Positions 318 to 47,005 of a DNA stretch of 64,000 bases are shown here, piece by piece. The notes beneath the pieces are model-generated. The model saw only the letters and a program-made list of their open reading frames with translations, searched no databases and had not been told where the DNA came from. Each line of letters begins with the position of its first letter. Position 1 is the first letter of the stretch. Source of the stretch: Protonemura montana (lineage: Eukaryota; Arthropoda; Insecta; Plecoptera; Nemouridae); NCBI GenBank assembly GCA_947568835.1, contig OX387607.1:11237701-11301700 (forward strand), in the 5' to 3' direction. The position numbers and the translations under genes are program-made.

Positions 318-738
318 AATCTGGTTCTAGAGAGATCAGATCACCGAAGTTAAGCTACACTGCGCTGGGTCAGGTATAAGATGGGCGACCAGTATACACA
401 TATCTAGTTATATTTGAGAGAGAGGGTGGAGGGGTGAAAGTTAGTAAAGCAACTTCATTTGCCTTGCTTAGCAGCCTTTCGAAAACATGGCCAATTGTTG
501 AGGACTCCTATTTTTCGAATTGTACCATCTCTCGGAGGAGACGTTAAGCCGGTAGTTTTCTTGGTGCTCGACAAGAGACGCCCACCTGACGGCACCGAAT
601 TTCCCTTACACCCTTCCAGAAACAGTTAGGTTTATTATCATCCTCATCATTAATTACCCATTCATCAAAGACAATATATTGGACCAGTGTCACACGGACA
701 GTTGGCAAACAGTGTGCCCTTAAACACAACAAACCGTG
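318..738 (+). repeat. 5S-rRNA-derived SINE, near full length (copy S1)
   Basis: The head (about 330-395) reads like the 3' half of 5S rRNA, with gatcaccgaagttaagc, then ggtataagatgggcgacc, which cover the pol III internal control region. A middle domain follows with a short fold-back around accatctctcggaggagacgttaagccgg (cut here into the pieces accatctctcggaggag and acgttaagccgg). The tail has a tcatcctcatcat run, a tcattcacc-like motif and a cttaaacacaacaaa end. The same head, middle and tail order recurs at least four more times in the window, so the unit is about 400 bp. The middle domain resembles conserved core domains of metazoan SINEs (possibly Nin-DC type); I cannot confirm which. 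Confidence 0.85.
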
Positions 739-2205
739 TAATTGTGGTGCAATGTCTTTTCATTTTTTTTTAGTTCTAGTGCCTCTGAAAACCATTTAAA
801 TGTGAAATACCAAATACCAAAAGTACCAAATGGTAATTGGTGGCTGCTGTGCTTCATGATTCGACTTGAAGCACAGATGCGTTATCGCCTTCTATCTCCT
901 GGTGTCGGCATCTTCATAACAACGACAGATAACCAACCGATTAAACGCATCGGTCCTGAACGTCTGGACGTCGTTAAACTCCTCGTTAAACCGGTCGTTA
1001 AACGGGCCGACATCGCAAAGAGACCGACGTAGGGGTTATCAGCTGACGGCGCTTACAAAGCTCGACGACGTCGGTCACTGGGTATGGCGGCGTCGACGGG
1101 TCACAGGGGGGTGGGGGGGGGGCCTTCTTCAGGCTCGGGGCAGATTCTCGCTTGGTCGAGAGCACGCGTGATGATTCACAGACGGCATTCACGGCCGGAT
1201 ATAGTGTATAAAGCGTTAATTGACTAAAGGTTACTTTAGACAACTAATTACTTTAAATGTTTCTGTGTGGAAATGTAGATACGATTAATTACCATTCTCA
1301 ATATAAATATGCCGTATTTGCGGTAGGTTTTGTTTATAAATATAGCATAACGTACATTAGCCGTGTAGGTATATGAATCTTAAATTGGCAATGCAAGGTA
1401 TCATTACCATCCAGCAGGTACATTAATCGAATTGTTGTAATTATGAAAAATGTAAATGGGCCACAGGCATGGTCGAATTCGGTCAAGTGCAGCTCATGAA
1501 CCCAACTAGAAATAAAAATCGAGGCATGGCCTGCGTTCTGAATCTTGATGGTGGAAGCCGGGTTGATAATTTTGACATCCTGGTAACAAATTGGCTGAAG
1601 ATAGATGCCAAATTCTTAAATCATACTTCATCACAATCTGGTTGCTGCCAAAACTGGTTCAACATTATCACCGATTGTATTCGAATCCCGGTTGGAGTAA
1701 GTCACTCAATATTTTAGGCTATGTGACAGTTTTTCCAAATCAGTTCCTGGTACCTAGAACGACTGAGTGAGAAAAATACTTGGGAGTTGGGAAAGCCACC
1801 TCTTATAAAACACCATGTGTACGTTCCTGGTAAGATAGTTCAAGTTCGGGACATAATCGGAGATGCACGTGTGTGGCTACATTCCAGACGAGCCCGCCGC
1901 TGCCGGGAGACTAACAGGCAATTTGTTGCGACACCCCGATCCCTTTCCCCGTCAGGGACATCCATCACCCGGGGAGCGAGGGTTGCGATTGCTTTCAAGG
2001 CAAACGATACACGGCAGGGATAGACAAACGTCAATGGAGGATTGCCATAGTGATTATTGACTTGCCCATCGACGCATTGTCTGTTGCCGCAGAGTTTGCC
2101 GATATGTGCCCAAAAAAACTAATATTTCAATTCGGTGTAGCAGTTTCCAAGACATATTTTATAAATGGGTCTGATGCTAGCTAGTGACATCTATTGAGAC
2201 AGCAC
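739..2205. other. Intergenic, no gene seen
   Basis: No protein family is recognisable in any frame. It holds a CG-rich patch (about 940-1110) with repeated cgttaaac words and a broken G-run at 1107-1125. The rest is AT-rich single-copy-looking sequence. Confidence 0.6.
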
Positions 2206-2575
2206 CAAAGCAAAGTGACAAAGTGATTAGGATGAGCGGTGGCCGGTCCTTGGTGCTGTTCAGCAAGGGCAGGTTACTTGAGCCAGCGCCGGGCTTACCC
2301 TAAGTAGAATGAGACTCAACCCACACAATGTGTTAAATAGCCAAAAAATAGAGAGACATGCTGATTGTTGACACCGGGTCCTCCCTAAACTCACTTGTAT
2401 GCAAGGCTTTCTTTATTGCCAGACTGTCGTCATTCACCGAAAACATGGTGCCAGAACAGTTAGCTAGACGATGGCCTGCTGTTTGCACTGTTGTACAGGA
2501 ACAGGCTACGTACCGGCACAGGGTCCAACCTCGGCCTCGGCTGCCTCTGAATTTGAATCACCGACTCCTAGAGTA
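2206..2575 (+). repeat. Two degraded pieces of an unnamed SINE-like repeat (family E)
   Basis: Segments near 2206-2295 and 2418-2575 share blocks with 4636-4835: gacagcacca, gatggcctgctgtt or an equivalent, ggtgctgtt and caggaacaggc. The order is the same in each copy, but they have diverged strongly. I cannot see the ends or a promoter box, so class and full length are unknown. Confidence 0.5.
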
Positions 2576-4345
2576 CCAAGTTTCTGTACCTCGCTTGACG
2601 CACGTGCAGTCGACGCTATCACGCTGTCACGACGCCCATGCGTCTGTCGACGCCGTGACGCGTGCCAAACGACCGGCGTCGCGACGTCCAGCGTCGAGGG
2701 CGTGACGCCAGGAAGCCGAGCGGACTGCTGAAATCAAAATAAACAAAAGTCTATTACGTACGAGTTACGAGATCTCATCACAGAATTTGTTATGAGATGA
2801 GCTGCGGTGATTTATATTGACAGGCTGGAAAGGAATTCAGTGTAGATATTTTACAGGCATTCGGAAATGGTTCCTGTTCCAGTATCTTCACAAGTTTCTC
2901 TGCTGGTAACAAGAGAAGCTTTACTTATTCTGAAGCGTCGGCCTATTAGTATTCTACCGGGTAAGTATGTAAAGAAATCCATGGTGCGAAGTGGATTGGT
3001 TAGCAATGGGGAAATAGTTATCAAGTTTATCGAAGGCTTTGTTTGGTTGATCCAAGCAAAGCTAAGATGCTAAACTAAGACCGACCAACAGTCATTTCTT
3101 GCGAGAGGGCTAAAATGATTCTCTGAAAGCCACGCTTCTCTCTCGGCCGTCGGCGTCAATGGGGCGTACCTCGAAACCTACCGACGCCAACTCAATGCTC
3201 CCAAAGAGCCGGCAAAGACGCTTCAGTTTTACCGACATCGTAGCACTAGTAAGACAGTCGTGTGACGTTATGTACGCATCACTTGACTTATCGCGTCGAC
3301 GAACTAAGCAAGGTTAGGCAGATTGCGACTGGATATTGGCGTCTAGACAAGTCCAGCCGCCGTCTTCAAGGAGCTGTGTCGTGTGGTTGGAAAGTTTGTC
3401 GGAAAAGCTAGCTTCTGAACGTTGGGAAAATGGCCTGGGGCGATTTTTTTGGCGCAGGATGGACCGGTAAGTGGTTCCCGGTGCCGAGCGCGAATTTGTA
3501 TAGTAGGAATGGTGTGTTCGTTGAGTGTGCACATGTGTGATGTTGGGAATTGGCATACCATGAGAGTTGGCGGGCTGTAAAGTAATCGGCTAAGTGGTAA
3601 TTTGTAGTTTGTTTGCGCTCCGGTCTAGGGAGCGGCAGAGGAACTTTATTTAGTAATCGCGGTGCAATCGCAGAGGAAATGAAAAGACAAATTAATAATC
3701 AACCAATAATGCGTCAAGAAGTTTTCTGAGATTTTTCCTCTGAAAGTTTTCTATGCTCTGTCTATGTTTGAAGAAGTACACAAGTTTGTGAAATATCAAC
3801 AAATAATCATAGCGTCTGATGGGACTGACTGTACAGAACTCCCGAGACAATCGTCAAAAAATATTTTAATTGTTTGTATTCCATACTGTTATCATTTGGG
3901 ACTTGAACCCAATACTGTTATCGCAAAACGCTTAATTACCAGACCCTGTAATCAATTCAAGAGCATCTTTCACCCAGGGTTAGGGCCATGGGATCGAACG
4001 TGACAACGTCACATGTTATGTCACGTCAATAAGCACCCAGTTCAAGGCGCCGACGATCTTCGCGCCGCCTGCAGCTGGCGGACAAATTGCAGTAAAAATT
4101 AACGAACAACAATTAAAAATTGCAGTTCTTAACATGACCGCGTTACTCAAAACTGTAAAATTTCTAGTCAAATACATCTGATTCCACTCGTAGCGACCAT
4201 GACCCCTCAACTCGACATTTGAGTCCTTAACGTTTGACCACAGGGGCGGGACCCTGACGCGAAAACCAAAACGTAAAAGTCAGGTTCCCATCTAGCGGCC
4301 GGCTGATTTCGAAAAGAAATCAATGAAAACTCGACTAAAACTTAG
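2576..4345. other. Intergenic; CG-rich patch then AT-rich sequence upstream of the mARC gene
   Basis: At 2590-2710 the sequence is dense in cgacg and gcgtcg words. A similar texture, without clear alignment, occurs at 49375-49545 and 51890-51930. No coding region is recognised. An unseen 5' exon and the promoter of the downstream reductase gene should lie here if that gene starts with AUG, but I could not identify them. Confidence 0.45.
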
Positions 4346-7300
4346 TCCTTGCGCTGTCCAGCCAGCCAGGTAACGCTGGCGGCGTCGACGGCGGCCGTCC
4401 TCGCGGTCACCATCTACACGCTGCGACGCCGCCCCCGACCTGCCGCCGCCCCCGCCCCCGACGCGTGGCGAAGGGTGGGCACTTTGAAGGACATAACAAG
4501 TTACCCGATCAAGTCGTGTGGGGGCGTGCGACTTCAGACCAGCCACTGCGCGGTGCTCGGGCTTGAGAACGGATTCCTGCGCGACAGGTATTGTCTTAGG
4601 GAGGTGAGGTGCCGGTTCTTGACTGAAAATTGGCTCCATTCTAGTCAGGCTGTCATTCACCGACAGCTAAATGACAACAGGGACAGCACCAGCACATTTT
4701 GGAAAATGGACGAGACTAAGCAATGGCCTGCCGTTGGTGCTGTTGAACAGGAGCAGGCCAAGTGCTTTTACCGAGTTCACTCTCGGCTCCCTGCTAGGCC
4801 ACAACAGCATCAATATCACCAGCCATTTGCAGACTGTCAATAATAAAAATAAGTAATGCTAGCTTTCAAAATTTGGTGGAAAAAATTAAATAAGATATCC
4901 TTAACTGCATCAATTTTTTTAAATGCCATTAATGTACAAAAAATTGCCCAAAATTAAAAACTAGAAAAAGATAAAAATCGTAGAGATAAAATAAATTTCA
5001 AATCACTCGATATGTCTGATTAAATTGGTAACATTGTTTTTTCCTGTCTGGCTTCGCCTGTCCTAACACCAAACCCTGTTCTCTTAAACAGGGTATTCGT
5101 AGTGGTACGTGAGGGAGGAGACTTTGTGACCGGACGAATCTACCCAAAGCTGACGCAGATTGCTCCGAGCGTGGAAGACTCCACAATGACGTTACGGACA
5201 GAAGGAATGCCTGACATCTCGTTCGACATCGCAGCATTGCCCGACAGGACCACCAACAATTCCAGGTATACGAAAGAATAGCAAGTTAGTGAATGTTTTC
5301 ACCATAATCTGTCCTTATTGATTATGAGTGAAACTGAAGAGTTCGAATCTTTTCTTGTGGTGGAAAAAACAGTTGACAGATAAATTATTTTTTCTTGTAG
5401 AATGAGATTTTGCCGGCTTAGGTAACAGCTCGAAATGTGGTTGTGTTTCTAATTTTACCGCTCGTCGCAGGGTGTGGGGCCAGTCAGTTCGTACTGTCGA
5501 CTGTGGGGACGCCGTTGCGACGTGGCTGTCTCGCTTGTTGCTAGATGGCGCGGAGGCCGGCTTGCGTCTGGCATACTTCCCCGGCGACACATCCACACGT
5601 CAGGTCAAGCCACAGAACGCGTTCAAGAAGAAGTGTACAGCCAAGGACATGGTATGGGCTAGTGGTTTGCTTAATAGTTTTTCATCGAGGTTAATTACTA
5701 TATTGTGTAAGAAATTAAATAGAGTTTGTGTTTTACCCTTATCTTAGAGATAGTCCACATTCTTGGAGAAAAATACGTGAAAATAGGGGTAAAGTTGGAG
5801 GGAAAACAGCGTACCTTGGCATGAGGGAGGGATAACTGCACAGGGATGGTTAGCAAAGCAGGCAAAACAGATAAAAACATGCTAAGCAATCTTTTAATGA
5901 TTTCTCCATTCATTTGAGCATTGAGGTGCAGGGAGCATTGAGCTAAGAAACTGTTAAGGCAGTCATTAATTATTGGTGTAGCCAAACCTGTGGTTGTACT
6001 TATTTCTCCAGTTGTTGTGAAGGCAGTTGGAATCATTGCAAATAATCAAATTTGTACTCAAAAGACTCTCCTCAACTCAAAGGTTGTTTCGGTTAGAAGC
6101 CATCACATTCAAAACTAACTTAACTAACAAATATAAGCAAAACTAACGCACATATACACTAAAATTCTATGGAACATTTCAGTAATTACGTTTGGCTGAT
6201 GCTTCAATGTGGCTCTCTCTTTACTAGGGTGCTTTCAGTGATGAGACCTCCTACTGCTTGATGTCATCTGCATCGGTTGCCGACCTGAACTCGAGGCTAG
6301 CACGACCCGTTCCCGCAAGGCAGTTCCGAGCAAACTTCCTTGTCGAGACGGAGACGGCTTTTGCCGAGGACACTTGGGAATGGGTGCGCGTCGGTGACGT
6401 CGTCTTTCAAAATGTCCTTCCCTGCACGCGGTGAGTCATGGACACGGTTTGAAGTGAAAGTGGGTAACAGAACTCAATTATGAACCCATACTGCGCTTGC
6501 TACATTATGAGTCTTGTCGTTTGGGACAGGTTCCGAAACAGTAAATGTTATGTTACTATGAATCACTGCTTTGCAACTTGATTTTCTCAGATTAAAACAA
6601 AGATATTTTGAAGGAAGCATAGCAACTTTAGCATGTAGATGTATGTCTTTCCCTGGTTTTTTAACTTTTGCTGGTAAAAGCAAGTTTATTTTGCACTTGT
6701 GCTTTGTACATTCATACCTGCAGTCTACAGAATGATCTTGTTCTGCAAAATGTCACTCTGCAGTGCACTAAATTAGTGACTCAACAGACAGCTCTGAAGC
6801 TCAGAACACTTGAACTAAACAAGAGCGTGAGCTATTCCAAGTTAAAATGATACCAATCAGAAAAAAACAATATCTTAAAATAAAAAATAAATCTTTCTTA
6901 ATCCAGGATGCAGGAGGAACAAAATTTGCTCAATGATCATGTTCTTGTTTTTCAAGATGCCTGTTTACAACGGTGGACCCTGACACAGGCACAAAGAGTG
7001 AGGACACAGAACCGCTACAAACACTGAAATCGTGAGTTGCTCTAATGACTACGATTATACGCCTCCTTGCTTAACTTTTATTTGACCGTTTGTCAACGAA
7101 AGTACCGGGAGTTATGCAGGTAACTGGTGGCAAGAGTTGGAACTCGGACAAAACTCACATAATGAGCTATAATGTGCTAAGCACCATCCGTTTCATGCGA
7201 AAAACATTAATATACAAAAAAAAGGTTGTTTCAAAGTTTAGTTACTGTACCAAAATGGAACCATGTTGGGGTAAATTAATTGTAACTTAATCGACTAGCG

Positions 7301-19734: not shown

Positions 19735-22700
19735 CTAATTGCAGGGCATGAGCTTGTAACGTGAGGGCAACAGCTGTTGGCAAAGGAATGGCAAAACCCA
19801 AGTGCATGGGACATCTTGCATATCCGCATTCCTAGCGAAGCCGAGAGTGGTACATTTTTCGCCCGCAAGTCCCTCATATATGTTTTGATGTGAGAGCGAG
19901 CCGACTGTGCACAAACGTTGATCTGGAACAAGAAGACCCCCAGACGAATGAGGTACAGAACCAAAAGTATATAACATTTAGATCGGAGATATTAGACCCA
20001 AATCATTTCGATGCATTCAGGATAAAGTTTAAGTATTTGAAAGAATTTGACTACGTTCCTAAATGACCACTTTATTTTCATTTTTTTTAAAATCTATATA
20101 TATTTTTAATTTATTTATACCAAAGCCTACAAGACCAAAAGCCTTACAAAAGCAAAGATTTTTGGTGTCTAACTGGTTTCGTTAGTAAAAAACGACAACT
20201 TTTGGCCAAGAGAAGGTTATTTTAGATCGAAAATCATGTTTAAGTTATTTTAATTGTCATGTTTATGGAAAGGGAGCTAGGACTGAAAAATGTGGAACCG
20301 AACTGGGATACGAACCCGGAACCATTACAAAACCCGGGTCATATTGTTATTTATTTATTTTTAATTGGATGCGTTTTGGGTGCATAAACAAGTTTTTGTC
20401 TATGATTGTTTTTAGACTCATGTCTACTTGATTTATCCTTAGCACTAGTTTTAAGAAAAACTGTTTGAAATGGGGTTTGAATGCTAAGTAAAGGGCTACT
20501 AAATTTATTTTTATTTTCATCATCATATTATTTTTAAATTTAGTAGCCCTTTACTTAGCATTCAAACCCCATTTCAAATAGTTTTTTTTTTAAGTTTTAT
20601 TTATATTTTTTGGTTCTGTTTTCATCGTAGAAAATTCACGGCTGCTATGATCATTGATAAAGTAAAATTCATCAGTTGCGAAACTTTGGGAAAATAATAA
20701 TTTTTTTACTTAGCATTTAAAACCCCAGTTATTTCAAGTGTTTTCACACGTGCTAAGGATAGATACTGTAGACATAAGTCTAGAAACCATAAAGCAGAGT
20801 TAGCTTTTGCAACAATGCTGACCCGATACTAAAAAACCTAAGCATTAATGTTTTCCCTTCAAATTTAATCCACACACTCAACGATGGAACTAATAATGTG
20901 GTAAACCCGTGAACCGGGCATAGATAAAAAAAGTGAACATTTATCCCTCAACTCACCTGTCTCCGAAAAGTCCCAGTCCAAACGGACGAGATTGTCAGTG
21001 AACCCGACGAAGAACCCACTGGGCCAATACTTCATAGCAAGCGAGGTGGACGAAAGAAAGATGTCCAACAGTGGAGTGTAGTCGGCAGGGGTCAGAGGGA
21101 CGGCCAAGATGGCGCCCTCTGAGGCACAAATGTCTTTCGCTTGAGCGAAAGTCTTCTGCTCAGTGTGCAGCTTGAAGTACCCCTGGTTGTCAACAAATGT
21201 GTAGCCCGCTGGTGGTGTCACAGCAGCTGTATGGAGAAATTACTGAATTTACCGATTTTATTTTTGTAATTTAAGCCTGTCACTTAGATAATTTACTGTT
21301 TGTGTAAGGTCTAAGCTTACAAAATGCACGTACTTGAAAATTTGGCTTACACCCAGAAATATCTACCACTGTACAAATAGAAATTCCAGCTTACGGAGTC
21401 TGCTTTGATTGATAATTAGAGAGAGAGAGAAAATAAATTTATTTAAAAATCGACAGCTTTCCATAGATATGGTTGACCATTAAGGTCTAGCTTACTAATC
21501 ACTTACTGCTAACAATTTGTTATTAATATTACTTATGATTATGGTTATGAAATGAACACATTGTAATTATGAATTTTAGTTGTATAGATGGTTGTGCAAG
21601 ATGCAAATTGATGATTTAAGAATGGCAGGAACTATTGAATCTAACATTGAGAGCGAGATGATGAAACGCTTGAGGAAGTCAGTGAAAAACGTCGGTATTC
21701 CTCCCCGAGCACCGACCAGCCACCGCCCACTATCTCCCATTTTCCGACAGGGATCTGATATCGTCTGGACAAGTCGGCGATGCAGGGCTGGTATATCCTC
21801 TTTTTCTCATCATTCTTTTTCTCATAATTATATTACATTAATGACTAGTTAATTAATTATTATGTATACTTATTATCTTATAATAATATTATTTTATATA
21901 TTTTATATATTTACTTATAAATTATAATTAATTAATTGATAATTAACGGTGGGTCAACACCAAGATGGACCTTTCAGTCCCAAATGCGATTCCTCACACG
22001 ACAATTGGCTGATGATAAACAACACATGTTATTATAATACTAACGTAGAAAAGAAAACTGTCCATTCTGTGAGAAAAGGTACCAAATTAAAGCTCTCTAG
22101 ATCCATTTTTTCCATAATAGATAGCGGAAAAAATGCATGTGAAATTACGTGGAATAAATTTAAATTCATGTTTGCAACGGTTTCGCCTCTCACGGTCTAG
22201 GGTACCTATATGTGTGTATGCCTAGTTAAGGCAAGAAGCGAGCAAAAATAAATTAGTGTGTTATCTTTTAAGACGTTGGCATTTCAACTCGATCCAACTA
22301 AAACCAAACTTCTTCGAGCCCCCACCCTAAGAAAGAAAATTCATTGGAAAACGTTTTGGTTGTTGCCTTACTCGATGTTCTTACCAGGTGTTATGGCCAT
22401 AGTGACCGCCACAGCATTGACGGCGTCGTCGCAGAAAACGGGCATGAACCAATCACAGTGTGTCCCGGTGGCTGGGGCGCTTGTCCCCGGTCCCGTCAGC
22501 ACACAAGCTGAGCCGCTCTTAGTCGAACACTGCCAGTTGTCAACGTCCATGATCTTGGCAACTGTATTTAGATAGGTGAGCAAGTGACGTAATTAAAACA
22601 TGTATTAAGTGTATTTAATGGTCATCGGTTGGATTTTGAAATGGTTTGTACCTTATTACGACGTTATTCTAATCAATTAAACTACAAAGTAAGAACAAAA

Positions 22701-24717
22701 CTTACCAGCAACAAGTGAGTCGACCGGACTGGTGACAGGACCAGTGGCAACTACTGGACAGTCAGGAGCAGGAACTGGTGCTGGGCAAGTGATGACAGGA
22801 ATGGGTGCTGGACACTCAGGGGCAGGAACTGGTTCAGGACATGTGGGGGCAGGGATTGGTTCTGGGCATACGGGAGCAGGAACCGGTGCAGGGCAGACTG
22901 GGGAAGGATCTGGTGCTGGACATGCGAGGGCAGGGGTTGGAGCTGGGCATACCGGTTCAGGGCAGACGGGGGCAGGAACTGGTGCAGGACATGTGGGGAC
23001 AGGGATTGGGGGTGGGCATACCAGTGCAGGGCAGACGGGGGCAGGAACTGGTGCAGGACATGTGGGGGCAGGGATTGGAGGTGGGCATACGGGAGCGGGA
23101 ACCGGTGCTGCACACACAGGGACAGGGGTTGGTGCTGGACAGAGGGGTGCGGGAACTGAGGCAGGGCAGAACGGCGCAGGAGCTGGTTCTGGGCACGTGC
23201 GGGCAGGGGTTGTAACGGGACAAGACGGGCAATTGAGAGATGAAGGATTTGTTAAGACCGGAACTGGAGCGGGTGGAACACTGTAGCCTTGTACTTGAAG
23301 GGTTTGGGAGAAGGCTGATGGCCGACCACGATATCCTGTGTTAATCGCTGGGTATCGATTTCCTTGTACTGAAGAGTAGCTTTGACGCAGGCTGCTTTGA
23401 GGCGGGAAATAGGCGGAGGGCTGGTAATTTGCGTAACCGGCCCTTAGCCCTTGAGCGGGAGTAGGATTCACCAATAATTGCTGGATAAGACTTGCAGAGG
23501 ACGACTTTTGGGGTGTCCAAGCAGCTCCTGCATCTTTGGACAGTACCAATAGCACGAGCAGGATGGCCCCAATACCTGGAAAGATGAGGAATTTGTGGTC
23601 GCAGCAACAGTAAGCAATTCCGGTTGTACGCTATATTTAGAACAACGACTTAAGGTTCAAGGTTACGTTTAGTCATGGTAGGACCAGTTGGACTGAGGTG
23701 TATTTAAGTTATATTTAAATCCAGTGGCTTTTCTTTATAAAAATCGTTGATTGAAATCAATTTTTAAGAACCTACGTTATTAATTATTATAAGCAACATC
23801 GGCGATAGGTGGCGATCGGGGTTCTATTTCCCGTCTAGGCATCAATATTTGAGAGGTTTTTAGTGCTTCTAATAATAAAAATACCCCGCGCATTGCAAGC
23901 TTTTGCAATTTAAAACAGATTTCACAAAATATTATGTACATTTTTCTTTTAGAGGAAATCTTTGATTTATTTATTTTCGTAAAAATATGTTAAAAGTACT
24001 TGCACTGTAAAGCTGCACATGAGAAAAATTTAAAACCAGGTTGTTTTTGTGGTACTTTTTTTTTTAATATACAAACATTTTTCTGAGATATTCGTTGCCT
24101 TTGTTGAAAAAAAATATATATATATACTGACAAAGAATATGAAATTCAATTATTAATTAAACTTTTGAATCCAAGGAGATGCTGAGATCGCCTGTCAGAG
24201 CTTGCCTGCGTCCTATAAGACTTCTATCAAAGGTAGTTTTTACTGATGGTTTTTAGAACTTGATTTATCCTTAGCACTAGTTTTAACAAAAACTATTTGA
24301 AATGAGTTTTGAATGCTAAGTAAAGACAACTAAATTTCCCGACGTTTCGTAACAAATAATAAGTACATGTACTTATTATTTATTATTTGTTACGAAACGT
24401 CGGGAAATTTATAAAGAAATAAAAATAAATAAAAAATAATAAAATTGTCAGGACTGCTGTAACCCTTGAAGAAGAAACTAGTACATGTTACGAAACGTCG
24501 GGAAATTTAGTTGTCCTTTAATTAGCATTCAAAACCCAGTTCAAATAGTTTTTTTTAGTGGTTTATACTGTTTAAAAGTTTGTCACTGGCAGGTTTTCGG
24601 CAAATACAAAACCTGGTGGAGTTACGAGCCTCTGTATCAGTAGGATTTAAGTTGCAAGGAACATCTCTTACACTTACCAGTCACGGCGCGGAATCCTTCC
24701 ATCTTGTAGAAGAACAT
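19735..24717 (-). CDS. Secreted Cys-Pro repeat protein with C-type lectin-like domain
   Basis: Five exons on minus: 24717-24678, 23575-22706, 22561-22385, 21226-20957 and 19922-19735. All introns are GT-AG and phase 1; the total is 1,545 nt (514 residues plus TAG). Residues 15-25 (IGAILLVLLVL) form a signal-peptide core with likely cleavage near residue 31. Residues 33-140 are a Gln/Ser/Tyr/Pro-rich linker. Residues 141-289 are about 17 units of C-P-x-P-x-P-x-P-x (27 bp each), two of them shortened. Residues 304-362 (NWQC, HCDWFMPVFC) match the C-terminal half of a C-type lectin domain. Residues 363-514 form a full domain (YFKLHTEQKTFAQAKDICAS, then GEKCTTLGF and PCTWVLPFLC). No EPN or QPD sugar-binding triad is visible, so carbohydrate binding is doubtful. 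The inferred role is extracellular, perhaps a cross-linked stalk with a recognition head. Confidence 0.88.
20297..20345 (-). repeat. tRNA B-box relic
   Basis: gggatacgaacccgg on + is the reverse complement of a pol III B box (ccgggttcgtatccc), as in the tRNA-like locus at 25850. Only the T-arm side remains. Confidence 0.4.
20430..20590. repeat. Fold-back MITE (family M, copy 1) in lectin gene intron 4
   Basis: A perfect 43-bp inverted repeat, 20464-20506 against 20536-20578, with a 29-nt loop. The arms begin tttgaaatggggtttgaatg, a sequence shared with 24290-24320 and 24520-24550. The left flank ttgatttatccttagcacta is shared with the copy at 24262. Confidence 0.9.
22730..23215 (-). repeat. 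27-bp coding minisatellite (Cys-Pro units)
   Basis: Tandem 27-bp units inside exon 2 of the lectin gene encode nine residues starting Cys-Pro. About 17 units are present, and two are shortened by 12 bp, preserving frame. The opposite strand is also open because of the repeat, which produces spurious Gly-rich frames. Confidence 0.9.
23795..23935 (+). repeat. tRNA-type SINE, 3' part (family T), in lectin gene intron 1
   Basis: gatcggggttctatttcccg (eroded B box), then gaggtttttagtgcttct, a taataaaaataccccgcgca step and the terminal hairpin-like ttgcaagcttttgcaattt. Confidence 0.65.
24255..24552. repeat. Nested fold-back MITE (family M, copy 2) in lectin gene intron 1
   Basis: The outer inverted repeats are about 65 bp: actatttgaaatgagttttg at the left, and its reverse-complement counterpart ending tcaaatagttttt at the right. 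Inside lies a second hairpin, so the block tacgaaacgtcgggaaattt occurs three times (once inverted). A ttgaagaagaaac segment precedes the right-hand block, as in the copy at 35655. Confidence 0.85.
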
Positions 24718-25849
24718 GTTGCTTGATAAGTGACAAGTATCCCTTGTCAACACCGGCACGGTAACAAGTATTCTACGTACGAATTTCTAATCTAATTTTT
24801 TATCCATTGCGTGTTTAAAAACAAAAAAGAAAATACTAGGTAACATCAACAACACGGTAAATGACCATGGCCACTAAATACAATAAGTATGGTTTACACA
24901 TGCTCCCTTTTTCACTTAATTACCCGACGCTTGCCGATTTCCATGGAATAACATGACTTATTCATTGGTCTGAATTTTGGCTGGATTTTGACACCTCAAA
25001 AACTTGGCAAAATGCGTCTCTCTAATCAGAGATTATTCTAAAAAAATTGAGACAGCTGACGCCACGGAAATGCGTGCCTTACGCGCGACGCCCGTCCTCG
25101 ACGCCGACGCCATGACTGTCCGGATCATTGCAACACCCTGGAGCGACGACGCCCCCACCGACCACGATAACACCATTCAAGTTTATGCTCCACAAGCAGG
25201 AAGAAGTAAGATTAATGTAATCCAGGTAAAATATGTTATTTTTACTGGCTATCTCACCTGCAAATCGAAAGCAGGAATAATAAACGATGAAATCTTTCCC
25301 TGTTTTTGAAATGAAAAAAAAAACAAACAAACAATAGAGAAATAAAAAGAATTAATAGAAGAAAAATAATAATAATTGCATTTCGGGCAATGCGTATATT
25401 TGCAAATAATCTTAGGGAAAGTAAATAAAACTGGGAGTGTAAACTTAGAACTGGACAAAAGTATGAGTTTTTTTAATTTCTTTTTCATGAGCGATAACAA
25501 AGCTTTCACAGAATAGCTACACATTAAAAAACAATTATTTTATTGCCACTACTTTTAGAACATATAATTGTTTACCCGTGCCCGTCATTACGCCCACAAC
25601 AAAAGCATATCGGGTGCGTAATAAGAGTCGCTTGGCATGATAATGATAATTGGTATGATAATGATAATGATGTCATTGCCATGATAATTATACCGTGTAA
25701 TTATTTTTCTGGCAATTGTTTCGTTGTTTGTAAGCCTGATAATTTTAATTCCACCCACAAACATTGTGAGTTTGTACGGTCCAGAAGTAAACATGGTAAA
25801 CAGCTAAATCATAGCTCATAGAAACCTCATGTATGACCGAAACGGGATA
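24718..25849. other. Intergenic; 5' flank of the lectin gene
   Basis: No TATA box is obvious upstream of the start. A frame at 25004-25309 has a CG-rich patch but no recognisable domain and is not called. Short ataatgata-type simple sequence lies at 25637-25690. Confidence 0.5.
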
Positions 25850-25910
25850 CGAACCCGGGACCGCCCAATTTTCGGTCGGGTGCTCTAGCAACTGAGCTAT
25901 CCGGGTACAC
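25850..25910 (-). tRNA. tRNA-Phe-like sequence, probably a pseudogene or SINE head
   Basis: On the minus strand the A box is tagctcagttgctagagc and the B box is gggttcgtatccc. A five-pair anticodon stem (CCCGA/TTGGG) encloses a seven-base loop reading CCGAAAA, giving anticodon GAA. The base 5' of the anticodon is C instead of the invariant U, and the acceptor stem pairs poorly. It is therefore more likely a decayed tRNA or tRNA-derived SINE than a working gene. Confidence 0.5.
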
Positions 25911-26440: not shown

Positions 26441-26526
26441 TGTAATAAAGTTTCATTCAAACAGCATGTGAAATGTTTTTCTGTATCTCTTTAGTTAGCT
26501 CGAAAGCTGGATTCACAAAGCAAAAA

Positions 26527-26962
26527 CCGAACGGTTTGGCGTGTTGAAACACCGGTTCTCGTGAGATCACCAAAGTTAAGCAACACTGCGGTGAGTGAGG
26601 TATTGGATGGGTGACCGTCATACACATGCCCAGTTCTGTTCGGGAGAGTGGTTCGAGGGATGAAAGTTAGTACAACAACTTCATTCGCCTTACTCATCAA
26701 CCTCTCAACAGCATGGATTTGTGGAGGAATCCTGCTGTTTGAGTTGTACCGTCCTTCGGAAGGGACGTTAAGCCGGTGTTCTCCTTGGTTCTCTTCGACA
26801 GGAGATAGCTACGTGCCGTCACCGGGTTTCCCCTCCTCCCTTCTAGGCTATGTTAGGTTCATTATTATCCTCATCATCATCCACTCATTCACCGACGCCA
26901 TTAGACCAGTGCCGTATGGCCAAATGTCAAAACATTGCGTCGTTAAACACCACAAATAATCA
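26527..26962 (+). repeat. 5S-derived SINE, full length (S5)
   Basis: The best-preserved copy. The head is accgaacggtttggcgtg, then ctcgtgagatcaccaaagtt and ggtattggatgggtgacc. The middle is ccttactcatcaacctctc. The core is ttgtaccgtccttcggaagg and gacgttaagccgg. The tail is tcattattatcctcatcatc, cactcattcaccgacgcc and cattgcgtcgttaaacacca. It ends in a short A-rich stretch. Confidence 0.92.
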
Positions 26963-35770: not shown

Positions 35771-36144
35771 GAATATTTTTCAATTCGATTATTCTCTAAA
35801 GCTTATATCGTGGCAAGAAGTTTTGTTTTTCGAACTATTTCCAAGTTGTTCTTAGCAATAAAAACAATCTTGGGAATTCGTTGGTCTATATATAATAGTT
35901 GTTCGGAAATCCCGCCATTAAAATCACTAATCGAATTAAATTGATTAATTAATCAAATAGCAAGAATCTAAACTGAAATAAATAAACGAATACAAGGGGA
36001 AAATTTCTATAACTAAGTCAGAAAACTAATTTGGGACAAAAACTTTCCCAACAAATGTAAGTTTCTAATATATAAGATGTAATGTATGGGTGTGGATCGT
36101 GGAGTTTGAATGGAACGGAGGAGAGGAGAATGGAATCAGCGCAG
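35771..36144. other. Left flank of the large palindrome
   Basis: AT-rich, no gene. The last 60 bases are purine-rich (ggaacggaggagaggagaat). No target-site duplication matching the right flank was found. Confidence 0.5.
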
Positions 36145-36515
36145 CCCTGCTGAAAATTCTTAGCAAGATCTTGCAAGATCTTGCAAGATCTTGGCAAGAT
36201 CTTGGTAAGATGCAAGATCTTGCCAATTTCTTGGCAATTTCTTGAAAACATTTAAGATTTTTCCCTTCAGACAAGATTTTTTCAAGATCTTGGTAAGAAA
36301 TTGACAAGATCTTGACACGGTCCCGTGGGATCTTACATGGCTGCAAGATTTTTGGAATCTTGGCAAGGAAACGATATCTTGGCAAGTTCTTAGCAAGTTC
36401 TTGAAATAATTTTTTTGTGTTGCGATTCTTGAAAGATCTTGCACGCAGAATTCTGCGTTTCCGACTTTAAAGTCTTCTAAAATAATAATTGATAACTGCA
36501 AGATCTTGCTCGGTG
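36145..36515. repeat. CAAGATCTTG palindromic-decamer array, left arm end
   Basis: It starts ccctgctgaaaattctta and continues with many, partly degenerate, copies of the self-complementary decamer CAAGATCTTG spaced by one to a few bases (dense at 36163-36230, sparser to about 36510). The mirror copy is at 43190-43560. Confidence 0.9.
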
Positions 36516-36754
36516 CGAAAACGCACTCGTGAATGGAGAGCACACAAATGAGATTAATGTTTGTCTTGTTGAATGCTCTGGTTCTGGATCTGATCCCTCT
36601 GATTCTGAGTTTCTGGACAACTGGACCATGATCCAGTTGTAACTTTTTCTGCAGGAAGGTTTACAACGTCATTATACTTAGGGGTCGTTGTGACAACAAT
36701 ACTTCGTAAAACTGTGAAATTTAACGACGCATTGTTTCTATAACCTCTCTCCGG

Positions 36755-36868
36755 TACAGAACTGTGTGTGATGGACACTCATATACTAATACCCAGCGCG
36801 TGTTGCTTGACTTCGGTGTTCTCACGAGGACCGGTGTTTCCAACATGCCAAATCGTTCGGTGATAAGC
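36755..36868 (-). repeat. 5S-derived SINE head in left arm (S8)
   Basis: On minus: acgatttggcatgttgg, ctcgtgagaacaccgaagtc and the cagttctgtaccggagagag transition. The 5S box is shortened (gggtattagtatatgagtg). The mirror copy is at 42837-42950 on plus. 36718-36735 (tttaacgacgcattg) may be a tail scrap. Confidence 0.75.
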
Positions 36869-37231
36869 TGAATGTCGGTTTAATGTGAATATATGATGCG
36901 ATTCTCCATTCGGGCTCTATAGTATTGCAATATATATATTTTTCATACTAAATGATAAATACTCATGCTAAGTTTTGTTTAGTAGGTATGTGGCAATTGT
37001 TGGACTGGGACCGAATTTTGGCCTTTCAACTGATATTTAATATTTCTACTAATAAATTTACATTTTATTATTTTCTCACAGAGTCGTACATTTTGTACCA
37101 CAAGATGCACATTATTGTAAATGTTTAATTATATTTATTTCAATCCGAGGTTTGCACGGAATTATTTGAAACTCCACAGGAATTTTGCATTGCATTCAGC
37201 AATGCACGCCCTTTTCAATCCTAAGTTACAA

Positions 37232-37320
37232 TAAACACCATCATCATCCACTGATTTACCGACGTCTTTAGGCCGCTGACAACGATGGCTGTTAGCAAAA
37301 TAGTGCGCCGTTGAACACGT
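37232..37320 (+). repeat. 5S-derived SINE tail in left arm (S9)
   Basis: accatcatcatccactgat, ttaccgacgtctttaggcc and gtgcgccgttgaacac match the tail of the family. The mirror copy is at 42385-42473 on minus. Confidence 0.65.
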
Positions 37321-37383
37321 TGATCAATCAACTGTGTTATTATGCAACTATAGCAAATATCACGGAAGGTATTGTTCTCAAAA

Positions 37384-37548
37384 ATGCCTCGTGTGCTTTT
37401 CTCTACGTGGATGAGAGCTTTATCAAACATTGGTGCTGGGCCCTATGTGATTTCCGAAGAATTAAACTCCCAAATTCGAAGAATTAGCTTGTTGTACAAG
37501 CGTACTTTCTTCTGTGTTTTCGACCAACGAAGACTTTCGAATTCACAA
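37384..37548 (+). CDS. Exon-like segment, unrecognised protein (left arm)
   Basis: ATG at 37384 in an A-rich context opens 55 codons, beginning MPRVLFSTWMRALSNIG and ending DQRRLSNSQ, directly followed by a consensus donor gtaagt at 37549, phase 0. Composition looks protein-like, with a basic N-terminal stretch that could be a targeting sequence. The family is not recognised. A next exon with a matching phase was not found. The identical mirror is at 42157-42321 on minus. It could be the first coding exon of a captured host gene, or chance. Confidence 0.35.
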
Positions 37549-38414
37549 GTAAGTACGAAACAAACTTATAGTCAATACGGTACATACATTTACTTTGTAG
37601 ACTTTGCACTCAAGATTTTCTTTTGGCGAACCCATACAATATTGGTTATTTTGTGTATACGTTTCGCTGTTATGCAAGTTGTTATTTTGGTAAGAACAAA
37701 TACCCTCGATTATCTCTGAAAACGCTCTTATAATCACAGTGAATTTACTGTGTTTTTTCATTCACAGTGAATCTCAGGTATAAACAAAACAAATGACTGG
37801 ATTCCAATTTAACGCTCGGCTATAATAATTGTCATTTTATAATCATAACATGGTCATTGGTGATAGGTGACATGTGTGTGAAACATTCGGCTGACAAAGA
37901 GTGGCGCGATGGACCAATACCTTGTTATAGTTCTTTCATTTATCTCAACAGCAATTCTTTACTTTTCTGTCAAGAGAAAAAATGTGCTGATGCTGAAATG
38001 TAGTGCATCTACTCAAGTTGAACTCATACTCGAGTTGCTGTTGCAGATAAGAAAACTAGACTCCAACGACTCATTCTTTATTAGCCGGGCTATATATGCA
38101 TTTTAGCAGACTTGCAAAATGATACTCGTAGCGAGCAGCGTTCCTCAGTATGAACTAGATTTCGACTGGTGGAGATGTGTCGCGTCGCGTCGCGTTGCTT
38201 TGTTTAGTCTCTAATTGCACAAATTATTTGTCTTTTTCGGCAATGCGATTGTTAGAAATAGGAAGTCATTTTTACCGTCTGCACTGTGGCATTTTTTGTC
38301 TTCGGGGTTTGAAGTTAATAGGGGAGACCTTTCAATTGATTTGTTTCGTGTAATTTGAAGGTACGCATCACTGTTACATTCAAACGCATCACTTCTTGAA
38401 TATCGTTTGTCTAG

Positions 38415-38617
38415 AAGCAAATTGGAAACATCACCTTATCAACATGCTTCCTACTTTTTCAGTCTTGGAGCTCAAAACGTTGCTGCGTTCATCAGTACTG
38501 AATTGGAAGACAGATGCTCCACTTTATTCCCTGACAAGCTGCCCTTGTCCACAGTAGAAGCAGCTATATCGCTTGAAGATAGCGTTGCGATGTCAACGGA
38601 CAATTTCACAACTCTTG
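38415..38617 (+). CDS. Exon-like segment, unrecognised protein (left arm)
   Basis: An acceptor at ttgtctag (or a stronger one, ctactttttcag, giving a start at 38463) leads into an open frame with LGAQNVAAFISTELEDR, PLSTVEAAISLEDSVAM and STDNFTTL. It closes at a consensus donor gtaagt at 38618, phase 1. Acidic/hydrophobic alternation suggests real helices, but no family is recognised. The mirror is at 41088-41290 on minus. Confidence 0.4.
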
Positions 38618-38750
38618 GTAAGTTTGCTAGGATGCAACTACAATAATCAATTAATTTTCAGAAACCTATGTTGGCATTTATTGATCAGGAGGTGCTAGTA
38701 CAAATGATGCTTGTTTCCATGTGTTTAAAACCGCACATTTTTTATTGCAG

Positions 38751-38867
38751 TGCTGTGAATCTCTCCTGGCTGGTGGCAACAAACTCTGAGATTCCATGCC
38801 CATGGTGTGATGTCCCAACTTATTTCTGCCCTCCATTCCAAGCTCCATTGGAAGAAAAATTAGTATG
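38751..38867 (+). CDS. Exon-like segment with CPWC motif (left arm)
   Basis: A strong acceptor (ttttttattgcag, ending 38750) leads to AVNLSWLVATNSEIPCPWC, then DVPTYFCPPFQAPLEEKL, and a consensus donor gtaagt at 38868. The CPWC and nearby Cys could be a metal or redox site. The frame needs entry in phase 2, while the preceding exon-like segment leaves in phase 1, so they cannot be joined directly; joining gives a stop within three codons. An unseen exon or pseudogenisation is implied. The mirror is at 40838-40954 on minus. Confidence 0.4.
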
Positions 38868-39234
38868 GTAAGTTAATTTGAATTTTCCTCCAAAATCTAT
38901 GTTCGTACTATCTATTTAAATAGCATTTGTTAACATATGCGATTTCTTAGACGCTAATTTTTTCACGTAATATACAAGTACTCCAAAAAACTACTTGGTG
39001 GGCCCCTTTAACTGCTTTACCAACATTTTGTAACCTTTGCTAGTTGCTTTCTCAAGGTAAAATGTTTGATGGATTTGACAGCATAAACAAAATATCAAGA
39101 AGAAATTATATATTTGCCAATGATTCCTTGAATCAAAATAGTTCTATAATTAATCCAGCTAAATGAGGCTTTTTGAATAAAAAATCCCAAAACCACAAAA
39201 AATGGCATATCTAAATCCATTTACTTACCACCTC

Positions 39235-40470
39235 AGGGAGACGCAGGGAGACGAAGTTTATAAGGAGTATTGAAGGGATAACGAAGTTGGACAACCCTGC
39301 TGAAAAATCTTACGTAAGATCTTGTAAGATCTTACCAAGATCTTGTCAAGAAAAACTTGCAAGATCTTGTGACAAGATCTTACAAGATCTTGCAAGATCT
39401 TATAAGATCTTGCAAGATCTTATAAGATCTTGCAAGATCTTGAATCAAGATCTTGTAAGATCTTGCCAAGAACTTGCCACGATTGTTTAAGATCTTGCCA
39501 GTTCTTATAAGATCTTGTAAGATCTTGCCAAGAACTTGCCACGATTGTTTAGGATCTTACCAAGTTCTTATAAGATCTTGCCACGATCTCATGAAATCTT
39601 ACTACGATCTGATAAGATCTTGTTTGAATATCTTGCAAGATTTCCTAAGATTCACTGTAAAATGGCACGGAAAGGCAAAGTAGGTTTACAAAAAAATGAA
39701 TGCATATTAGAGATGCTACCAAATTTATTTTAAAATTGCAAAACTGTATGCACTGTATAACAAATTACAGAAATTGCAGTTTAGATATACTTTCTTCTTT
39801 CCAACAACTTCAAAACAGCTTCAAAACAAAACAAACAAAAATCAAATAAGAATTGAAAATCGGCAAATACAAACTATCAATGCCCTATCTTTTGTAGGAT
39901 GTAAACATGAAACAAAATTGAGAAAAAAATTGTCAAATAGAATCAAAGCTCTATTAATTCAAAAATATAGTATAAGAATTTTATGAATGCAATTCAGTAT
40001 ACCTATATAGGTGTTCCCAAAAATAAAAATAAAATACTTTAAAACTTGGCAAATAAAAATCATGAATGCCTCATATAACAATAAATATTTTAAACAATAT
40101 TAAGATAAAAATGGTAAAAAAGAACCCTGTAAGAAACTCTTGATTGAGAAATATAATAAGTATGCAAAAATAATAACCTAAATCAGCACAAAATTCAAAC
40201 AAGGTACTTAATGAACATGAAGAGAAGAGAGGAACAGCCGGCCAGGAAGTGCAGTGCACCCTCTGTCAATTAGGATGTCTTACTGTATCTGTAAAAAAAA
40301 AAGTAAATGTGTAAAAGCTTTGTCGCCAGACAAATAACAGCCAAAACAAATAAATAAGAGCATCTGTTTTCTAAATTTTTTAAATCTGTGATATACTTTT
40401 TTTTCAATGAATCACTGATTTTACAGAGTAAACAAATTTGTTTTTGTTGTACTATCACAGAATAATAACA
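39235..40470. other. Palindrome spacer with central CAAGATCTTG array
   Basis: 39294-39655 starts with the same ccctgctgaaaaatctta leader as the arm end and holds a dense run of AAGATCTT-type palindromes (tataagatcttgc and taagatcttgcc variants). From 39656 to 40470 the spacer is AT-rich, with long A-runs and no gene. Confidence 0.85.
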
Positions 40471-40837
40471 GAGGTGGTAAGTAAATGGATTTAGATATGC
40501 CATTTTTTGTGGTTTTGGGATTTTTTATTCAAAAAGCCTCATTTAGCTGGATTAATTATAGAACTATTTTGATTCAAGGAATCATTGGCAAATATATAAT
40601 TTCTTCTTGATATTTTGTTTATGCTGTCAAATCCATCAAACATTTTACCTTGAGAAAGCAACTAGCAAAGGTTACAAAATGTTGGTAAAGCAGTTAAAGG
40701 GGCCCACCAAGTAGTTTTTTGGAGTACTTGTATATTACGTGAAAAAATTAGCGTCTAAGAAATCGCATATGTTAACAAATGCTATTTAAATAGATAGTAC
40801 GAACATAGATTTTGGAGGAAAATTCAAATTAACTTAC

Positions 40838-42321
40838 CATACTAATTTTTCTTCCAATGGAGCTTGGAATGGAGGGCAGAAATAAGTTGGGACATCACAC
40901 CATGGGCATGGAATCTCAGAGTTTGTTGCCACCAGCCAGGAGAGATTCACAGCACTGCAATAAAAAATGTGCGGTTTTAAACACATGGAAACAAGCATCA
41001 TTTGTACTAGCACCTCCTGATCAATAAATGCCAACATAGGTTTCTGAAAATTAATTGATTATTGTAGTTGCATCCTAGCAAACTTACCAAGAGTTGTGAA
41101 ATTGTCCGTTGACATCGCAACGCTATCTTCAAGCGATATAGCTGCTTCTACTGTGGACAAGGGCAGCTTGTCAGGGAATAAAGTGGAGCATCTGTCTTCC
41201 AATTCAGTACTGATGAACGCAGCAACGTTTTGAGCTCCAAGACTGAAAAAGTAGGAAGCATGTTGATAAGGTGATGTTTCCAATTTGCTTCTAGACAAAC
41301 GATATTCAAGAAGTGATGCGTTTGAATGTAACAGTGATGCGTACCTTCAAATTACACGAAACAAATCAATTGAAAGGTCTCCCCTATTAACTTCAAACCC
41401 CGAAGACAAAAAATGCCACAGTGCAGACGGTAAAAATGACTTCCTATTTCTAACAATCGCATTGCCGAAAAAGACAAATAATTTGTGCAATTAGAGACTA
41501 AACAAAGCAACGCGACGCGACGCGACACATCTCCACCAGTCGAAATCTAGTTCATACTGAGGAACGCTGCTCGCTACGAGTATCATTTTGCAAGTCTGCT
41601 AAAATGCATATATAGCCCGGCTAATAAAGAATGAGTCGTTGGAGTCTAGTTTTCTTATCTGCAACAGCAACTCGAGTATGAGTTCAACTTGAGTAGATGC
41701 ACTACATTTCAGCATCAGCACATTTTTTCTCTTGACAGAAAAGTAAAGAATTGCTGTTGAGATAAATGAAAGAACTATAACAAGGTATTGGTCCATCGCG
41801 CCACTCTTTGTCAGCCGAATGTTTCACACACATGTCACCTATCACCAATGACCATGTTATGATTATAAAATGACAATTATTATAGCCGAGCGTTAAATTG
41901 GAATCCAGTCATTTGTTTTGTTTATACCTGAGATTCACTGTGAATGAAAAAACACAGTAAATTCACTGTGATTATAAGAGCGTTTTCAGAGATAATCGAG
42001 GGTATTTGTTCTTACCAAAATAACAACTTGCATAACAGCGAAACGTATACACAAAATAACCAATATTGTATGGGTTCGCCAAAAGAAAATCTTGAGTGCA
42101 AAGTCTACAAAGTAAATGTATGTACCGTATTGACTATAAGTTTGTTTCGTACTTACTTGTGAATTCGAAAGTCTTCGTTGGTCGAAAACACAGAAGAAAG
42201 TACGCTTGTACAACAAGCTAATTCTTCGAATTTGGGAGTTTAATTCTTCGGAAATCACATAGGGCCCAGCACCAATGTTTGATAAAGCTCTCATCCACGT
42301 AGAGAAAAGCACACGAGGCAT
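40838..42321 (-). CDS. Mirror set of the three exon-like segments (right arm)
   Basis: 42321-42157, 41290-41088 and 40954-40838 on the minus strand are exact copies of the plus-strand segments at 37384, 38415 and 38751, including splice signals. If either copy is transcribed, the two transcripts would read toward the centre of the palindrome and converge. The same uncertainty about phase and identity applies. Confidence 0.35.
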
Positions 42322-43189
42322 TTTTGAGAACAATACCTTCCGTGATATTTGCTATAGTTGCATAATAACACAGTTGATTGATCAACGTGTTCAACGGCGC
42401 ACTATTTTGCTAACAGCCATCGTTGTCAGCGGCCTAAAGACGTCGGTAAATCAGTGGATGATGATGGTGTTTATTGTAACTTAGGATTGAAAAGGGCGTG
42501 CATTGCTGAATGCAATGCAAAATTCCTGTGGAGTTTCAAATAATTCCGTGCAAACCTCGGATTGAAATAAATATAATTAAACATTTACAATAATGTGCAT
42601 CTTGTGGTACAAAATGTACGACTCTGTGAGAAAATAATAAAATGTAAATTTATTAGTAGAAATATTAAATATCAGTTGAAAGGCCAAAATTCGGTCCCAG
42701 TCCAACAATTGCCACATACCTACTAAACAAAACTTAGCATGAGTATTTATCATTTAGTATGAAAAATATATATATTGCAATACTATAGAGCCCGAATGGA
42801 GAATCGCATCATATATTCACATTAAACCGACATTCAGCTTATCACCGAACGATTTGGCATGTTGGAAACACCGGTCCTCGTGAGAACACCGAAGTCAAGC
42901 AACACGCGCTGGGTATTAGTATATGAGTGTCCATCACACACAGTTCTGTACCGGAGAGAGGTTATAGAAACAATGCGTCGTTAAATTTCACAGTTTTACG
43001 AAGTATTGTTGTCACAACGACCCCTAAGTATAATGACGTTGTAAACCTTCCTGCAGAAAAAGTTACAACTGGATCATGGTCCAGTTGTCCAGAAACTCAG
43101 AATCAGAGGGATCAGATCCAGAACCAGAGCATTCAACAAGACAAACATTAATCTCATTTGTGTGCTCTCCATTCACGAGTGCGTTTTCG

Positions 43190-43560
43190 CACCGAGCAAG
43201 ATCTTGCAGTTATCAATTATTATTTTAGAAGACTTTAAAGTCGGAAACGCAGAATTCTGCGTGCAAGATCTTTCAAGAATCGCAACACAAAAAAATTATT
43301 TCAAGAACTTGCTAAGAACTTGCCAAGATATCGTTTCCTTGCCAAGATTCCAAAAATCTTGCAGCCATGTAAGATCCCACGGGACCGTGTCAAGATCTTG
43401 TCAATTTCTTACCAAGATCTTGAAAAAATCTTGTCTGAAGGGAAAAATCTTAAATGTTTTCAAGAAATTGCCAAGAAATTGGCAAGATCTTGCATCTTAC
43501 CAAGATCTTGCCAAGATCTTGCAAGATCTTGCAAGATCTTGCTAAGAATTTTCAGCAGGG
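43190..43560. repeat. CAAGATCTTG array, right arm end
   Basis: Reverse complement of 36145-36515. It ends ttttcagcaggg at 43560, after which symmetry with the left flank stops at once. Confidence 0.9.
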
Positions 43561-43811
43561 AAGATTAAAAGCAAAATATTGAGAAAACTAATTCGTTAGT
43601 ACGGCCAGTCCTTGTGTTGTATTGTAATTTTCTTCTATGGCACGTTTTGTGAATGGTTATCTTTTTTCCATTTCCTTTTTAAGTGCTGGAAGACGGAAAC
43701 GCTTAAAGAAAGACGAATGAAAAAGCTAAACAACCTGTAAAAGTTAGAAGATGTGTAAATATTATTCTGCAATTTAGCGATTTGTTATTCATGGAATGTA
43801 CTGATTCATTG
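43561..43811. other. Right flank of the palindrome
   Basis: AT-rich, no gene. It starts aagattaaaagc. It has no match to the left flank that would suggest a target-site duplication. Confidence 0.5.
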
Positions 43812-46414: not shown

Positions 46415-47005
46415 TTTAAGCTTATTTAAATTGCAAACGCTTGCAGTGCGCCGGGTATTTTATTATTATGAACACTATAACCGTCTCAAAAATTGCTGCT
46501 CAAACGGGGACTCGAAACCCGATCTCCACCCATCGTGGGTGTTGCTCTAACCCATTGAGCTACTTGGACACATGCTTTTAAAGACGATTTTAGTGCATTT
46601 GATGAGAATGACGGATCTCCAAGGAGTAGAACCAAGGGCCTATGAGGCCAAGAGGCATCAATTTTTGAGACGGTAGTAGTGTTCATAATAATAAAATACC
46701 CCGAGCATTGCAAGCGTTTGCAATTTAAATGAGATTTCAAGTAAATAAAACGCATCCATCGTCAAATTGGAGTTACTTGAGATTGAATGGTTGTGACGTG
46801 GTATAGTCACTAGAATCAGAGTGACTGTGAGTCTTCACAGCCTCTTGGTTCTACTCCTTGGAGATCCGTCATTCTCATCAAATACACTAAAATCGTCTCA
46901 GAAAGCAAGTGTCCAAGTAGCTCAATGGGTTAAAGCACGGGGTTCGAGTCCCCGCCTGGTCATAAATTTTTGAGACGGTAGTAGCGTTCATAATTATAAA
47001 AACAG
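46415..47005. repeat. Fold-back cluster of three family T (tRNA-type) SINE copies
   Basis: 46415-46650 is a minus copy with an intact A box (tgctctaacccattgagcta on +) and B box (gactcgaaaccc on +). 46655-46750 is a plus 3' end. 46755-47000 is a plus copy containing the body ttggttctactccttggag, the A box tagctcaatgggttaaagc and the B box gggttcgagtccccg. The copies share the termini ttgcaagcgtttgcaattt and ttcaagtaaat. Confidence 0.8.

Follow-up and report, generated by a model that had tools for sequence, protein, structure and literature searches.

Two linked, opposite insertions of one transposon family very probably account for a perfect 3,090-bp inverted repeat in Protonemura montana

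A 64,000-nucleotide stretch of the genome of the plecopteran Protonemura montana (GCA_947568835.1, contig OX387607.1, positions 11,237,701 to 11,301,700 of the forward strand; hereafter the window, in whose numbering positions are given) carries a perfect inverted repeat with arms of 3,090 bp. Our analysis makes it highly probable that this repeat consists of two linked, opposite insertions of one terminal inverted repeat (TIR) DNA transposon family, R end facing R end, and that it is of recent origin. This degree of confidence covers the two-insertion structure and its recent origin, not the order of later steps. The family is probably non-autonomous.

The arms occupy 36145-39234 and 40471-43560, are 3,090 bp each and 100% complementary without mismatch or indel, and are separated by 1,236 bp. 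In a mirror comparison with a coordinate sum of 79705, all 3,090 positions matched, and identity was at background level outside 36145 and 43560 and inward from 39235 and 40470. A repeat finder returned the same arms, the next inverted pair that it listed in the window being 205 nt long at 81%. An earlier sequence-only reading of this DNA had described a perfect-looking repeat without indels, with mirrored coordinates summing to 79705, sharp breaks at both ends and a 1.2-kb spacer, and the two methods bear this description out. A chance origin of a 3,090-bp inverted repeat is excluded. The structure is not a symmetric unit with a spacer, but two oppositely oriented copies of one mobile element. 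Of the 1,236 bp between the arms, 14 bp are junction and terminus and 46 bp are host DNA; the other 1,176 bp belong to the right copy and are absent from the left copy except for their last 5 bp. The terminus CCCTGCTGAAAAATCTTA stands at 39295, and the near-same motif CCCTGCTGAAAATTCTTA stands at the arm ends 36145 and, mirrored, 43560; the terminus motif had 3 matches at 3 or fewer mismatches in the window, against 0.17 expected in shuffles. The non-symmetric spacer with an "array leader" noted in the sequence-only reading is therefore real, the leader being the terminus CCCTGCTGAAAAATCTTA at 39295; that most of the spacer is the uncopied end of one element had gone unseen. An RNA-gene origin of the arms was rejected, no Rfam family reaching the gathering threshold in them, as was a duplicated protein-coding segment, the longest open reading frame (ORF) of the arm having 166 codons, mostly in the repeat array. 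The features of the locus are as follows, the two ends of the element being called L and R.

35948 to 36144, plus strand: left part of the older dispersed host repeat that was the target, ending in AG at 36143-36144 (from paralogs of the joined empty site).
36145 to 39234, plus strand: left transposon copy, element positions 1-3090, from the L terminus CCCTGCTGAAAATTCTTA to the break; 100% identical to 40471-43560.
39235 to 39243, plus strand: junction filler, which with the preceding C repeats the next 10 bp (CAGGGAGACG twice in tandem; read directly).
39244 to 39248, plus strand: CAGGG, read as the last 5 bp of the R terminus of the left copy; the element ends ...CAGCAGGG, and the AG target duplication follows at 39249-39250.
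39249 to 39294, plus strand: 46 bp of host repeat between both insertions, beginning with the target duplication AG and ending with the target duplication AA, contiguous with both flanks in paralogs.
39295 to 43560, minus strand: right transposon copy, complete, 4,266 bp, with the L terminus at 43560 and the R terminus at 39295 (aligned to 40 loci, with full-length copies elsewhere).
39295 to 39650, minus strand: R-subterminal array of AAGATCTTG-type repeats in the complete copy (repeat finders; terminus motif).
43185 to 43560, minus strand: L-subterminal repeat region of the right copy, mirroring 36145-36520 (repeat finders).
43561 to 43592, plus strand: the AA target duplication on this side (43561-43562), then the host repeat to its right end (empty-site paralogs; target-duplication comparison).

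The 258-Mb genome (34 contigs) was searched with the first 1,001 bp of the arm; the best 40 of 941 candidates were scored, and the resulting copy numbers are lower bounds. At least 86 matches were obtained, some being short repeat pieces within one copy. At least 29 spanned query base 1 to 1000 or 1001 at 96-100% identity, 2 of these being the window arms; outside the window there were at least 27 full-span matches, one of them ending at base 1000. A look for the same arms elsewhere in the assembly had been proposed with the sequence-only reading, and it brought out what that reading had missed, namely that the arms belong to a multi-copy transposon. Further genome matches were likewise found for the final 1,035 bp of the arm and for the spacer of 1,236 bp. 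On contig C1, for example, the arm (26389976-26393062, plus strand) was followed by the spacer (26393063-26394282, minus strand). Because the spacer elsewhere directly adjoins the arm, reversed relative to its position beside the left arm of the window, arm and reversed spacer together make up one element.

Alignment to the 40 loci gave full-length copies, truncated copies, and copies lengthened by other insertions. Where both ends were recognised, most elements measured 4.2-4.5 kb. The matching short termini of the family read CCCTGCTGAAAAWTCTTA, a pattern also given as CCCTGCTGAAAA, and repeat finders returned imperfect AAGATCTTG-type arrays near both element ends. The terminus motif CCCTGCTGAAAANTCTTA had 105 exact genome matches (54 + 51) against 0 for a reversed control pattern, and coordinates were listed for 100 of these 105 places. 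Inverted termini with both ends recognised were found in 27 elements of the 40 loci. A 2-bp target duplication, identical on both sides, was present in 24 of these 27; elements with an unrecognised end were left out of this count.

Both window copies carry such duplications. The right copy is flanked by AA/AA (39293-39294 and 43561-43562), and the left copy by AG/AG (36143-36144 and, past its break, 39249-39250). With both insertions cut out, the two flanks and the DNA separating the copies were combined into an empty-site query, with which the genome was searched. The 41 matches comprised the 2 window flanks, 3 partial left-side matches and 36 that spanned both insertion points at 73-83% identity to the joined empty site. 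All four of the spanning paralogs whose letters were read showed GAATGGAAGCAGCGCAG-ATGAAGTTTATAAGG...GTTGGACAA-GATTAAAAGC or near variants of this, without any insert at the two points. Since the spanning paralogs are uninterrupted, the host was an older dispersed repeat, and the two insertion points were only 46 bp apart.

These paralogs bear directly on an assembly or sequencing fold-back, in which a chimeric read would have mirrored a single real copy artificially, as the sequence-only reading had allowed. Identity is indeed perfect over 3,090 bp, as such an artefact would have it. However, the host flanks should then be mirrored too, and the mirror stops exactly at the transposon termini. 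Each copy also has its own matching 2-bp duplication, AG and AA, and the flanks rejoin into a dispersed repeat. That empty-site paralogs rejoin both flanks and the 46 bp between them argues strongly against a fold-back or assembly artefact, which we consider very improbable. A single large fold-back-type transposon, with 3.1-kb inverted termini around a 1.2-kb middle, would also present long, identical arms ending in terminus motifs. Yet none of the 40 loci aligned (stretches mostly with 300-bp flanks) showed a second inverted arm, the two other L-end pairs within 10 kb among the places listed (on C3 and C14) are in the same orientation, and the outer flanks are AG and AA, hence no duplication. 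An element of this kind is scarcely credible here.

The left copy extends overall over 36145-39248 and lacks element positions 3091-4261 (1,171 bp), its last 5 bp being kept. After element position 3090 it reads AGGGAGACG-CAGGG-AG-ACGAAG, in which CAGGG may be read as the element end, AG as the target duplication and ACGAAG as host; a 5-bp match to CAGGG would arise by chance in about 1 in 1,000 cases. The break junction is a 10-bp tandem duplication, the preceding C plus AGGGAGACG being equal to the next 10 bp, as would be expected of end joining with copied filler. At that point the four empty sites read run from ...GCGCAG (or GCGCTG, GAGCAG) directly into ATGAAG, and the junction filler is absent from all four. 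A host in which CAGGGAGACG had already occurred twice was ruled out, neither unit being present in any of these four sites.

The break could instead mean that the left copy was never complete. Transposase would then have joined the L end alone and end joining would have closed the other side, as in the aborted re-replication of maize Ac. One end is lost here while the L end and the target duplication are intact, and an excerpt of PMC4270019 describes repair of aborted re-replication in maize by joining of broken ends. Against this, CAGGG followed by AG gives the last 5 bp of the element and the target duplication, which suggests that both ends were joined. We regard a never-complete left copy as rather unlikely. 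The same excerpt describes maize Ac/Ds composite insertions as linked copies with one side broken and closed by end joining. These contain termini of two elements and flanking host DNA, whereas the junction here holds element sequence and the 10-bp duplication only.

Distances were tabulated for 17 arms, each aligned to the query over at least 2,950 bp in a single piece, differences being mismatches plus gap openings. The window pair showed 0 differences over 3,090 bp and was the sole zero among the 136 pairs of these arms; the lowest of the other 135 pairs had 3 differences, and the median of the 136 was 27 per about 3,090 bp. By the rule of three, 0 differences in 3,090 sites give a rough 95% upper bound of 0.1% divergence. 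Among the 17 arms the nearest copy to the window pair was that of locus L011, with 9 differences. Eight alignment columns, made up of 5 substitutions and one 3-bp insertion, were private to both window copies versus the 15 others. The "very recent event" that the sequence-only reading had offered alongside its fold-back agrees with 0 differences between the arms versus 9 to the next closest copy examined; this part of it is supported, and the fold-back is not.

Conversion between close inverted repeats, the third option of the sequence-only reading, is known in general, and two older, independent insertions held identical by gene conversion would also share the eight private columns. However, conversion is not needed, all compared copies being young by the median given above, and it would have had to reach the last base of the arm. 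We judge it unlikely. With regard to clustering, 3 L-end pairs within 10 kb were found among 46 L ends, against 0.114 expected, and 3 or more were reached in 2 of 5,000 simulations (46 L ends from the 100 places listed out of 105; C13 taken as 15 Mb). Other R-to-R pairs at a spacing of 40-65 bp were sought under strict criteria without a hit; this search could not have detected the window pair, in which the left copy has lost its R end. The family tends to cluster, but neighbours identical to each other were seen in the window pair alone.

For the two linked insertions we propose the following steps. Local transposition would have given rise to one copy from the other; the donor may, for instance, have been a replicated sister chromatid and the target a site at a distance of 46 bp. 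We infer local copying because the eight private columns are common to the pair and there are no differences. The left copy would at first have been complete, because its last 5 bp and the target duplication remain. A break beside the centre, repaired by end joining with a short copied filler, would then have cost it 1,171 bp. The break may have come from an abortive excision cut or from the instability of a near-perfect palindrome with 4.27-kb arms. Tentatively, the locus may thus be a snapshot of palindrome resolution: a local inverted insertion would have given 4.27-kb arms with a 46-bp spacer, and an end-joining deletion close to the centre, in which a 10-bp filler was templated, would have turned these into a stable 3.09-kb repeat with a 1.24-kb spacer before the arms diverged. 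We offer this sequence of events as possible rather than probable. For Alu elements in the human genome, close pairs in inverted orientation are reported to be rarer than direct ones (excerpt of PMC3215922). Since inverted pairs are rarer there, loss of the centre might well be expected of a palindrome whose arms measure 4.27 kb and whose spacer measures 46 bp. Centre-break rearrangement of palindromes is named in a title within the reference list of PMC2444050. Compared with Alu pairs and centre-break palindromes, the initial arms here would have been about 4.27 kb long with a 46-bp spacer, and the centre-break step is a presumed one.

Several points weigh against two insertions of a TIR transposon or against local copying between them. 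No transposase was found in a scan of four open frames (the element exon from a sister copy, two arm ORFs and the ORF of a nested insert) rather than of the whole element in six frames, and no autonomous partner with these termini was found in these four frames. Three of the 27 elements with both ends recognised have no matching 2-bp duplication (the first copy of L012, L016 and the inner copy of L027). The neighbours on C14 and C3 are not closest relatives, so clustering does not always reflect local copying. At L012 (C14) a 2,776-bp piece alone shows 36 differing sites and 13 gap positions between the two copies, and the first copy has 23 differences in 3,086 from the window pair, fewer than from its own neighbour. 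At L027 (C3) a 654-bp piece differs at 6 places from its neighbour and at 1 from L011, L012 and L013. Moreover, gene conversion between the arms could have erased differences, the assembly consensus could have rendered two copies identical, and local transposition between the copies is a step reached by inference.

The four frames gave sub-threshold Pfam matches only (PF17222, E 0.039; PF00257, E 0.16). The exon, a relic, had no Pfam match at threshold and no PDB relative. It had 57 genome matches, and 24 of the 25 whole or near-whole-query matches contained in-frame stops, the exception being the query itself. L057, an older relative (81-85% in its main pieces), had no ORF longer than 137 codons. 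From the four frames scanned, the element is most likely non-autonomous. The family resembles the non-autonomous members of cut-and-paste TIR transposons, with short matching termini, a duplication of fixed length, many dispersed copies and shorter elements, and it differs in that the four frames scanned gave no transposase. CACTA elements carry subterminal repeats. The repeated motifs near both ends recall CACTA, and the 2-bp duplication is likewise as in EnSpm/CACTA (CMCT). According to an excerpt of PMC12730594, target duplications in the CMCT clade are 2-5 bp, termini are CA..TG in most cases, and PlavakaA has termini TGT..ACA with 2-bp duplications. The duplication here fits, but the termini CCC..GGG match neither CA..TG, which is not absolute in that source, nor the TGT..ACA given there for PlavakaA. 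The genome holds 5 matches to Transposase_21 genes, and no link to the family termini was found among the termini listed or in the 2.7 kb beside the C16 match. No listed C5 terminus lay near the C5 match, and the 2.7 kb on C16 held only three chance-like hits, with 3 or fewer mismatches in 12.

Further forms of the family were observed in the genome. At L027 (301-5297) the 654-bp L-end piece joins directly onto a complete element, host DNA being absent between the two; the composite is flanked by CA/CA as a whole, and the inner copy is without a matching duplication. At L029 (4261-6366) a 702-codon open frame with a sub-threshold Pfam match only lies in a different element nested in a family copy. 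Among the places listed was a short class of 10 elements, which share both termini of the family and measure 0.98-1.27 kb, 6 being exactly 1,266 bp long; this class includes C11:17959525-17960790, C12:327936-329201, C14:12658718-12659983, C15:12643085-12644350 and C3:27068590-27069855. These short elements lie 0.1-0.9 Mb from a contig end (on C13, from its start only). As judged from their termini, they are probably internally deleted derivatives with a subtelomeric bias. At C13:8313793-8313851, L and R termini stand within 59 bp and mark either a remnant or an extremely short element.

Other repeats and open frames were found in the window. A repeat family, D5, occurs at 34430, 42857 and 48092; it is 5S-like by eye, and one fragment is inside the transposon. 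A 5S rRNA-like match lies at 26526-26645 (Rfam, 51.4 bits). Together these suggest a dispersed 5S-derived short interspersed element (SINE). Two tRNA-like Rfam matches on the minus strand (25834-25906 and 46497-46569), uncalled by ARAGORN, are perhaps tRNA-derived SINEs. A 317-codon open frame on the minus strand (22677-23630) contains Pro/Cys-rich tandem units (CPAPVPAP) and had no Pfam match at E 0.01, and an open frame at 4346-4840 carries a MOSC N-terminal domain (Pfam PF03476, E 6e-6).

Herein, a striking perfect inverted repeat in a raw assembly is explicable almost to the base as two transposon insertions, which removes the need to regard it as an artefact or as something exotic. To the extent that the assembly can show, the structure looks biological, recent and ordinary in kind, and the copies of the transposon appear to be young and to lie in clusters. 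Should the centre deletion have come after the palindrome had formed, the locus would illustrate, as a young natural case, how a genome disarms the long palindromes that transposition produces.

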